Assembly: GCF_017873815.1 (NCBI RefSeq)
Contig: NZ_JAGGKQ010000002.1
Span: forward strand, 1 to 64,000
Direction: 5' to 3'
Length of the DNA: 64,000 nucleotides
Origin: Halorubrum alkaliphilum
GTDB lineage: Archaea > Halobacteriota > Halobacteria > Halobacteriales > Haloferacaceae
How positions within the stretch are numbered: position 1 is the first letter of the stretch; every line of letters starts with the position of its first letter. The translations under genes were made by a program, and so were the position numbers. Shown one piece after another: positions 53,447-55,652 of this stretch. The notes below the pieces were generated by a model that did no database searches, was not told where the DNA came from, and was given only the letters and a program-made list of their open reading frames with translations.

Positions 53447-55513
53447 CTACCCGGTTCCGAACTCGAACCGCGCGCCCCCGTCCTCTCCGGTCGTCGCCCG
53501 GATCGTCCATCCGTGCGCTTCGGCGATCCGTTCGACGATCGCGAGTCCGAGCCCCGTTCCGTCCTCGTCGGTGGTGAACCCGGTCTCGAATATCCGGTCC
53601 GCGTCCTCGGGAAGTCCGTGACCGTCGTCCTCGACGTAGAATCCCTCAGTGTCGCCGTCGCGGAGCGTCGTGCCGCCGACTCGAACGGTGAGCACCGCGT
53701 CCGACTCCGCGGCAGTGGTATGGTTCGAACCCTCCGCGGAGTGTTCGTCATCACGAGAGACAGTGTCGCTGTCTCTCGAACGACCGTGTTCCACACTGTC
53801 GCCGGGCTCCGCCCGGCTGCTAGTCGAGCCGTGCTCGACACTGTCGTCGGACTTCGTCCGACTGCTTGTGGAATGGTTCGAAAACTCCGCGGAGTTTTCG
53901 TCATCACGAGAGACGGCGTCGCCGTCTCTCGAACGACCGTGTTCCACGCTGTTCCGAAACAGGTTCTCGAGCAGTTCCCTGGCCCGAGTCGGGTTCGCGT
54001 CGAGTTCCACGTCGTCCTCGACGAGGAGTCTCGCGTCGGATGTGTCGACGCTCGCCCACGCCTCCCGTGCGAGCGAGTCGAGAGACACGGACTCGATGTC
54101 GCCGACGACCTCGCCCTCTCGGGCGAGCGAGAGGAGATCCTCGACGAGCCGGTCCATTCGCGTCAACGCCTCGTCGACCCGTTCGAGGTGGTCGAGATCA
54201 CTGGTCTCACGGGCCAGATCGACGTATCCCTCGGCGACAGATAAGGGGTTTCGGAGGTCGTGTGATACGATCGAGGAGAACTGTTCGAGCCGCTCGTTCT
54301 GTCGGCGGAGCGTGGCCTCGCGCTCACGACGTGCCGTAACGTCGGTGTATATCGCGTAGCCGGAGACGTTCTCCGCGTCGAGGTGGATGGGAATGACGTG
54401 GAGGATGAAATGGCGCTCGCCGTCGGCAGTTTCGCGAGTGACTTCCCGCCGAACGTTCTCGCCGCGTCGGAGCTTGGCGTTGAGCTCCTCGGCCTCGGAA
54501 CGGGACTCGACCTCGTCGGGAACCATGTACTCGTCGATCGATTCGCCGACGATCGATTCGGGGTCGTATCCGAACGTCTCCTCGAACGCGGAGTTGACGC
54601 GCCGGAAGCGCGGTTCTCCATCGATGTCGTCGTACGCGACCGCAGGGTCGGGGACGTTCTCGAACAGCGCGAGGAGTCGGTCGCGTTCGGCGCGGAGCTC
54701 GTCGTCTGTGCGGATCCGGTCGAGCGTCTCCTCGAGGTGTGATGCGAGCAGTTCCACGAGCCGACCGTCCTCGTCGGCGAACCCGCCCGGGTCGTCGGTG
54801 GAGATCTGTAGCACCGTGTCGTCGTCGACCGGTACGGTGATGTGGTGTCCGTTCGACTCGTCTCCCCGTCGCGGGGTGACGATCGGTTCGCCCCGTTCGA
54901 TGACGGTTCCGGCGGATCCACGGCCCGCTCTGACCCGCTGGCACTCGTCGAGAGCCACGTCCGCGGAGACGGCGACCGGCTCGATCCATCCGTCCTCCGA
55001 CACGCCGATGACGACGTCGTACTCCGGGAACACCTCGTCGGCGACGGCGACGGTGGTTCGATAGGCCGTGTCGACGTCCCGGACGGTCGCGAGACGGGTC
55101 GCGCCGGAGCCCAACCGCTCGATGCGTGACGGCGCTGACGACGGCGACGTCCGAACCGGATCGGCGTCGGTCCGGGTCGACAGCCACTCGACCTGCGTCT
55201 CGACCCCGTCCGGGTCCGTTGCGATGGAGTCGACGAGCGGGTGAGCCGCGACCGGCTGCGTCGGATCGTCAACGAGCGCGACCACCGGGAGCGTCGGGTT
55301 GGTTTCCCGAACTCGGTCCAAAGCTGCCGGCTCCATAACGACGAACGCGTCGGCCTCGGAGGGGTCGATCGGCTCGGCCCGTTCGGTTCGGAACCCGTCC
55401 GGAAACGGCTCTTCCGGGGACGAGACGCCGGCTGCCACTGACGACCACGCGACCGCCGATCCGTCCGGGTCGACGGCGACGACGGTTCGCTCGTCCGGAG
55501 ACGCGTGATCCAC
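53447..55513 (-). CDS. GAF/PAS sensor histidine kinase with a repeat insertion in the ATPase domain
   Basis: 688 aa from the GTG at 55513. GTTTATATTC ~30 bp upstream is the TATA box; the longer frame to 55636 runs back through it. Order: a receiver-like N-terminal domain (1-110), GAF (about 155-285), PAS (about 290-405), HisKA with His418 in [10 protein letters not shown], and HATPase (about 510-688) with [17 protein letters not shown] and [12 protein letters not shown]. About 80 residues of Ser/Asp/His-rich repeats ([20 protein letters not shown] type) sit between the N box and the next β-strand, where kinases normally have a short loop. Divergent from alaS. Confidence 0.85.
53720..53947. 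repeat. Hairpin array: two 75-bp repeats and two smaller palindromes inside the kinase gene
   Basis: 75-bp units lie at 53720-53794 and 53873-53947, differing at six positions. Each has two palindromes (GAAAACTCC/GGAGTTTTC type and GAGAGACGG/CCGTCTCTC type). Between them are CCGGGC-TCC-GCCCGG, GTCGAGC-CGT-GCTCGAC and TCGGAC-TTC-GTCCGA. Several differences between copies are paired across the stems. The whole array is in frame with the kinase. Confidence 0.85.
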
Positions 55514-55537
55514 GATACCAACGGATACCCCGGTTTT

Positions 55538-55549
55538 GAATATAAACGT
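55538..55549 (-). promoter_or_regulatory. TATA box of the kinase gene
   Basis: The minus strand reads GTTTATATTC. It is ~30 bp before the GTG at 55513 and decides that start over the longer open frame. Confidence 0.5.
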
Positions 55550-55652
55550 TCCCACCGACTTCGCCGAGCCCGTTCGGGGGTCGACACGGACGCTCCCGGC
55601 GGGTGGGCACACCCCGGAACCCTTTTGGAGCAACACGGGTCAGAACATGGTA

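Follow-up and report, generated by a model that had tools for sequence, protein, structure and literature searches.

A hairpin array in a haloarchaeal histidine kinase gene probably built up from two families of short palindromic inserts

The array of hairpins within a histidine kinase gene of Halorubrum alkaliphilum has, with a probability that we put at about 0.8, built up from haloarchaeal inserts of two families, both short, palindromic and devoid of a transposase, and the arms of these inserts are kept up at the DNA level. Family 1 is a double-hairpin unit of 45 nt (15 codons), and family 2 is a two-hairpin element that is 63 nt long in the kinase gene, where it occurs twice.

Results

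Modular structure of the array in the host kinase

The window (the whole 64,000-nt stretch that was analyzed) contains on its minus strand, at 53447..55636, an open reading frame for a kinase of 729 residues with GAF, PAS, HisKA and HATPase_c domains (Pfam E-values of 1.4e-13 for HisKA and 1.6e-13 for HATPase_c). The array directly follows the N box (53937..53968), which was recognized by its 11-residue sequence and the invariant N-box columns, and all of its parts lie on the minus strand. The VEHG codons of the N box (GTGGAACACGG, 53937-53947) double as the left arm of hairpin A of the first 45-nt unit. The right arm, TTCCAC, lies at 53868..53873 and is separated from the left arm by copy A of the two-hairpin element (63 nt, 53874..53936). 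In a second kinase of the same genome (locus L008) this hairpin is undivided (GTGGAACACGGTTCCAC). Copy A has the layout CGTTCGA-hairpin-TCGTGATGACGA-hairpin-TCGAACCAT, encodes 21 residues and has an identical counterpart in the paralogous kinase at G000:C3:24549-24610. Its hairpins are at 53907..53931 (CGAGAGACGGC...GCCGTCTCTCG) and 53879..53900 (CGAAAACTCCGCGGAGTTTTCG).

Hairpin B of the first unit is at 53844..53863 (AGTCGGAC-GAA-GTCCGAC, residues SRTKSD). In the second unit, hairpin A (53823..53839, GTCGAGC-ACG-GCTCGAC, residues VEHGST) is a compensated variant of GTGGAAC-ACG-GTTCCAC, and hairpin B lies at 53799..53818 (AGCCGGGC-GGA-GCCCGGC, residues SRAEPG). A further hairpin A, the third, has its left arm in a third copy of the VEHG codons (GTGGAACACGG, 53784..53794), and its right arm has decayed. 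Copy B of the two-hairpin element (53721..53783) also encodes 21 residues and is 90% identical to copy A; its hairpin 1 (CGAGAGACAG...CTGTCTCTCG) is at 53754..53778, and its hairpin 2, at 53726..53747, is imperfect with one mismatch. Both copies of the element thus sit between the arms of a hairpin A.

A sequence-only reading of the window had described repeats, palindromes and paired differences here, and their positions and sequences were accurate. The repeats span 53715-53799 and 53868-53952 and differ at 8 of 85 nt, with six of the differences in the hairpin core. As had been claimed, these differences are mostly paired: four of the six core changes amount to two compensated pairs (A-T to G-C and C-G to A-T), and each of the remaining two is a lone change by which the 53868 copy regains a pair (C.T to A-T and T.G to C-G). 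The small hairpins CCGGGC/GCCCGG and TCGGAC/GTCCGA do stand two compensated pairs apart. That reading had overlooked a third kind of hairpin, GTGGAAC-ACG-GTTCCAC, in which the N-box codons VEHG serve as the left arm. The array is in the kinase frame and open as it had stated, and its estimate of about 80 added residues comes down to roughly 70-75 in comparison with orthologues that read NSVEHG-RDSADDPLSVRVG; the array translates into 72 residues.

Perfect hairpins (arm of 7, loop of 3-5) number 6 in the window array and 0-1 in shuffles of its synonymous codons. Across 158 arrays there were 275 perfect hairpins versus 39 +/- 6 in synonymous shuffles, and control DNA upstream in the array-bearing genes had 32 versus 18 +/- 4. 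Since the counts far exceed those in the synonymous codon shuffles, the array hairpins are not due to chance. The insert is placed between the N-box helix and the next strand of the kinase, and an AlphaFold model of the HisKA-HATPase part, built from a shallow alignment, predicts a folded core and an unfolded insert at about residues 128-200 (pLDDT <50). The unit itself encodes SVEHG, so every insertion leaves the N box complete. The kinase presumably tolerates the array rather than gains from it.

Presence, absence and transfer among kinase genes

The second, diverged kinase of the window genome (contig C3, L008) carries the same modules in another order. Over 108 nt of array the two kinases are 99% identical, while blocks upstream are 50-80% and blocks downstream about 27-43% identical. 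A third kinase of this genome has a single unit, and most of its other kinases have none. Among 30 kinases that matched the N-terminal part of the window kinase, one per genus genome with the window's own included, the array site held no insert (e.g., L400-L405, L408 and L413), one unit or several. The orthologue L413 differs from L411 and L419 by exactly 45 nt. The kinase form of the unit, with hairpin A as GTGGAAC-ACG-GTTCCAC or GTCGAGC-ACG-GCTCGAC (left arm being the VEHG codons) and hairpin B as AGTCGGAC-GAA-GTCCGAC or AGCCGGGC-GGA-GCCCGGC, was found in 76 of 391 genomes of the class, with no match to the reversed control pattern.

The 45-nt unit in other protein genes

Copies outside the kinases were reached by searching with hairpin B alone. 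They share the layout GACAGCG-[hairpin A]-NGGC-A-[hairpin B]-GAC and peptides like DSEAQRASGSRTQSG, and were found in frame in PurA (adenylosuccinate synthetase), the LeuC/aconitase family, 5-FTHF cyclo-ligase, DUF7095, PspA, DUF302 and zf-CHY. The general form of the unit is GAC-AGCGAGGCGC-AAC-GCGCCTC-TGGC-AGCCGGAC-GCA-GTCCGGC, with the peptide DSEAQRASGSRTQSG. A class-wide pattern that leaves three inner pairs free (GACAGCGAGG N9 CCTC N GGC) matched in 96 of 391 genomes, from 36 of the 86 genera, and its reversed version had 0 matches. This search added hosts named, like the others, from Pfam or NCBIfam matches: tRNA-synt_1 (ValS-like), LeuC in further genera, a beta-CASP nuclease, DLDH (dihydrolipoyl dehydrogenase; Pyr_redox_2), Carboxyl_trans, Aminotran_1_2, AA_kinase, PNP_UDP_1 and a cupin. 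By a home-made codon statistic, 18 of 30 fetched class-wide loci had two flanks that scored as coding in the sense frame of the unit itself, and in none did both flanks score as coding in another frame. The unit is also present in intergenic DNA. The kinase form could be an older, separately evolved family of the same architecture.

The sequence-only reading had proposed to check whether the insertion is missing in relatives, and there are indeed kinase orthologues that have no insert and exact 45-nt empty sites. In LeuC, G017 (L506) has an insertion of exactly 45 nt, G003 and G039 are likewise longer by 45 nt, and the site is empty in nearly all other Halorubrum genomes. The only candidate for a target-site duplication in the flank is a 3-nt GAC repeat. 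DLDH is longer than PDB 1ebd by exactly 15 residues at the position of the unit, and the alignments of PurA and LeuC to their PDB relatives are also broken at that position. The LeuC fillings (L506 of G017, G003:C18:18848-19085 and G039:C200:37030-37267) occupy one site, which is filled in other genera as well (L465 and L480); either same-site insertion or old inheritance would give this pattern. In a beta-CASP type nuclease the unit lies at the same position in L462, L472 and L476, which come from genomes of different genera. Given the open sense frames in the coding cases, the units are predicted to be translated into the mature proteins, and a benefit of the 15 extra residues to the hosts is conceivable.

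A class-wide two-hairpin element

Family 2 has the form TCGTTCGA...TCGTGATGACGA...TCGAACCA, a length of about 50-66 nt and the terminal inverted repeats TCGTTCGA/TGGTTCGA, and it consists of a pair of inverted hairpins. By pattern it occurs in 208 of 391 haloarchaeal genomes with up to about 20 copies per genome, and reversed-pattern controls gave 0. The family is apparently unnamed, and its stems vary freely yet stay paired (loci L149-L268). The target is almost always G^C. By the codon statistic, neither flank scored as coding for 124 of 129 testable copies, and the two annotated plasmid copies are intergenic.

Some copies lie within other mobile DNA. An IS200-type tnpA of the window genome (L300, G000:C14:36522-36935) is broken by a 54-nt copy that contains a TGA in frame; G043 (L311) has an insert at this site too, whereas L304 and L310 are cleanly empty there, and no target duplication is seen. 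Three more copies are inserted without duplication in tnpA genes or an IS terminal palindrome (L179, L156 and L196, from Natrinema, Haloquadratum and Salinadaptatus). In the TnpA of Natrinema hispanicum the copy (L179:4935-4985, WFERRSLSSSRESEILER) is antisense and in frame just past the HUH motif, and the reading frame stays open. These four, the C14 tnpA included, are the cases with an IS605-type element or palindrome as target, and most copies are elsewhere. An in-frame copy was also found in GltB, the large subunit of glutamate synthase, of Halobacteriales archaeon QS_4_69_225 (L163:624-5303), where the insert, with SNHS in its peptide, is at residue ~294 and is missing from the PDB relatives.

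No linked transposase or RAYT was found for either family. A TnpA match was near 3 of 116 family 2 loci, and these three are insertions in or beside an IS200 tnpA; the window genome has two Y1_Tnp genes. Neither 2.9 million viral contigs nor phage records contained a pattern match, so that viral carriage of the elements was not seen. Rfam gave no match at the gathering score and sub-threshold matches only; an Rfam origin was rejected.

Arm compensation, loop orientation and the difference between neighbors

In hairpin A of the kinase form, the third positions of the V and S codons pair with each other, as do those of E and G, and all of these changes are synonymous. The clean set for covariation consisted of 80 loci of other genera, retrieved by means of a pattern in which neither pair was fixed. 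Among these class loci, which are related rather than independent sequences, the table for V3 and S3 was 41/2/1/36 (p=3e-19) and that for E3 and G3 was 46/6/2/26 (p=4e-13), while off-register pairs gave p=0.17 and 0.10. Each of the four paired haplotypes is represented (28, 17, 15 and 10). Loci from the window's own genus, unlike the class loci, were collected by similarity to a paired query, and their off-register pairs were also significant because the haplotypes are linked there, which makes the class set the clean test. Loss of compensation with more copies, which the sequence-only reading had named as counting against it, did not take place; compensation across the arms became far stronger.

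The other hairpins behave similarly. In hairpin B the partners covary non-synonymously (T..S, A..P and P..A), and the X1-Y1 pair was AT in 24, GC in 18 and CG in 14 of 58 cases. Inner pairs of the general unit were Watson-Crick in 60-62 of 66 cases and belonged to several pair types, and in family 2 94-97% of positions were paired versus 15-43% when slid. Counts of G.U versus A.C were 13 versus 16 in the kinase hairpins and 2 versus 7 in the general unit, and the proportions in family 2 were 1.4 versus 1.3% and 1.3 versus 0.4%. When global folding was compared with that of synonymous shuffles, the arrays had a median z of -0.42 and control regions one of -0.50. The loops of family 2 occur in both orientations on the same stems (GAA 40 and TTC 35, GGA 26 and TCC 20, AAA 12 and TTT 18).

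Neighboring hairpins tend to differ. Adjacent perfect hairpins A differed at both variable pairs in 46 of 56 cases, where 17 were expected and none of 5000 permutations reached this number, with GATC beside CGCG and CATG beside GGCC. This effect holds among perfect hairpins only; a permutation that included imperfect ones gave none (15 same versus 16.8 expected), because arrays of identical units (L359 and L384) have broken stems. Those two arrays, from G171 and G194, respectively, are made of several near-identical units with an imperfect hairpin A and form the exception to the rule. Likewise, the two hairpins of one family 2 element shared the first five arm bases in 0 of 120 cases, with 15 expected. 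Identical neighbors could cross-pair their arms and then be lost by slippage. Simple tandem duplication of identical units was discarded as an origin of the arrays, since neighbors differ.

Discussion

How might such an array arise and keep its stems? The accumulation of two insert families is a reading that starts from what was seen directly, namely presence and absence, in-frame insertion, dispersal, covariation, the lack of an RNA-type wobble excess and loop symmetry. On this reading, family 1 inserts into protein-coding genes in the sense direction and without shifting the frame, at loops that tolerate 15 extra residues, and in kinases it sits at the N box, where the unit, with the hairpin GTGGAAC-ACG-GTTCCAC, re-encodes SVEHG and keeps the motif intact. 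Family 2 enters mostly at G^C without target duplication and sometimes within other palindromes, and in the window kinase it entered the hairpin of a family 1 unit twice. Units are also passed from one kinase paralogue to another and amplified in tandem, and template switching between the arms would homogenize them and flip the loops. The absence of a G.U excess, the equality of array folding and controls, and the loops in both orientations favor upkeep at the DNA level, and template switching is its most likely agent as judged from the sequences; no reconstructed tree has a change of both arms in one step.

A role of the hairpins in the kinase mRNA, where their folding would regulate translation or stability, seems quite improbable. 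The arms do pair strongly and neighboring hairpins are mutually non-pairing, as independently folding stems would need. However, no family has a clear excess of G.U over A.C, the array folds no better relative to synonymous shuffles than control regions do, the units occur in unrelated genes and intergenic DNA as well, many orthologues have no array, and no Rfam family was hit at the gathering score. The sequence-only reading had offered selection for nucleic-acid structure or palindromic insertion with strand-switch-like upkeep. The former finds no support at the level of RNA, and structure may be under selection at the level of DNA; the latter is supported by the empty sites, dispersed relatives, in-frame copies, paired arms and two-way loops. 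Still less probable, and hardly credible, is that amino-acid selection on a repetitive linker of the HATPase domain produced the palindromes as a by-product of protein composition. The unit restores SVEHG, the insert is made of acidic and small residues of the sort that is usual for halophilic loops, and it is predicted to be unfolded beside a folded core, whereas the covariation of synonymous sites across arms refutes this as the sole cause, residues covary only as the base pairs dictate, and the 275 hairpins compare with 39 in synonymous shuffles.

Local tandem duplication with gene conversion among kinase paralogues, and nothing mobile, would account for the tandem arrays and for the array segments that are 99% identical in two kinases of the window genome. 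As an explanation of everything it is very unlikely, given the 45-nt unit in frame in many other families and between genes, the exact 45-nt empty sites in LeuC, and family 2 copies in tnpA, gltB and intergenic plasmid DNA. Duplication and conversion are thus contradicted for the unit overall and likely remain contributors inside kinases. A better case, albeit a doubtful one, can be made for DNA hairpins that are selected as sites of HUH or IS200-like single-strand transposition, as in REPINs, with compensation arising from that selection and not from template switching. The two inverted hairpins of each family 2 element, its conserved ends, the G^C target and the absence of target duplication would fit, as would hairpins that never share arms, as if they needed to fold separately, and the two Y1_Tnp genes in the genome. 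On the other side, no transposase gene linked to the elements was found, and arms that are almost free and loops that are equally frequent in both orientations are what template switching predicts directly. As for the target-site duplication that marks a MITE of a DDE transposon, the family 2 tnpA cases have none, and the 45-nt unit in LeuC has only the 3-nt GAC repeat.

A bolder version of the two-family accumulation is offered as a tentative suggestion. These would be coding palindromes, spread across a class of Archaea, that have no transposase of their own and an arm adapted to the target, and their arrays would persist only where neighbors are mutually non-pairing. The N-box unit would bring along both the codons of its target and the reverse complement of these, which would restore the motif and preserve the palindrome. 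If true, such elements would amount to genetic inserts of a target-templated, self-maintaining kind. More generally, some insertions in haloarchaeal proteins may be translated selfish DNA and not adaptations, and the hosts include housekeeping enzymes, among them a ValS-like synthetase, LeuC, PurA and DLDH. Since the copies number in the hundreds, the evolution of palindromes becomes measurable through synonymous arm covariation, loop flipping and neighbor avoidance.

A search of the openly accessible literature for the DNA and peptide strings of the elements gave no match and nothing relevant. By their architecture, the closest coding counterparts in the parts of the literature that were accessible are the Rickettsia palindromic elements (RPE; Ogata 2000, 2002), which are described there as about 150 bp long, translated, in frame in many unrelated protein genes and also extragenic (PMC6649704, PMC10969869). 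In-frame palindromes in unrelated protein genes, and outside genes, are likewise found for the 45-nt unit. As far as those descriptions go, the haloarchaeal units differ in their length of 45 nt, two separate hairpins, occurrence in Archaea, tandem arrangement in places, free variation of the arms with pairing retained, and the existence of a kinase form that encodes the N box. Coding palindromic inserts have so far been described as a rickettsial peculiarity, and the same kind of process appears across haloarchaea.

Family 2 resembles the small mobile repeats (SMR) of Haloquadratum walsbyi, SMR-A (about 110 bp) and SMR-B (HqIRS41, 80 bp), which are described along with PATEs (PMC3119063), in its terminal inverted repeats and its lack of a transposase and of target duplication. 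Insertion into IS605-type elements and their palindromes, a trait of the SMRs, is seen in the four family 2 cases above, most copies being elsewhere. Copies of one SMR type are commonly >95% identical (PMC3119063), whereas family 2 has 50-66 nt, two hairpins, free arms and a class-wide distribution. REP elements and REPINs with their RAYTs share short hairpins in inverted pairs, conserved head sequences and a preserved stem complementarity that has been noted for REP elements too (PMC2817692); here, no flanking RAYT gene was found, copies are few per genome (up to about 20), and family 1 is mostly intragenic. PARCELs (PMC2996958) are tandem coding repeats with dyad symmetry that are shuffled within genomes, but they encode a 25-residue amphipathic motif in ORFs of no assigned function, whereas our 15-residue units interrupt conserved enzymes. 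Arm homogenization and spacer inversion are the published signature of template-switch mutagenesis at inverted repeats (PMC8604942), and such cases (PMC8604942, PMC8794818), together with the coding palindromes of nematomorph mitochondria (PMC6649704), match the paired arms and two-way loops seen here. In those systems the arms arise in existing sequence, whereas in the haloarchaea the palindromes arrive as inserts.
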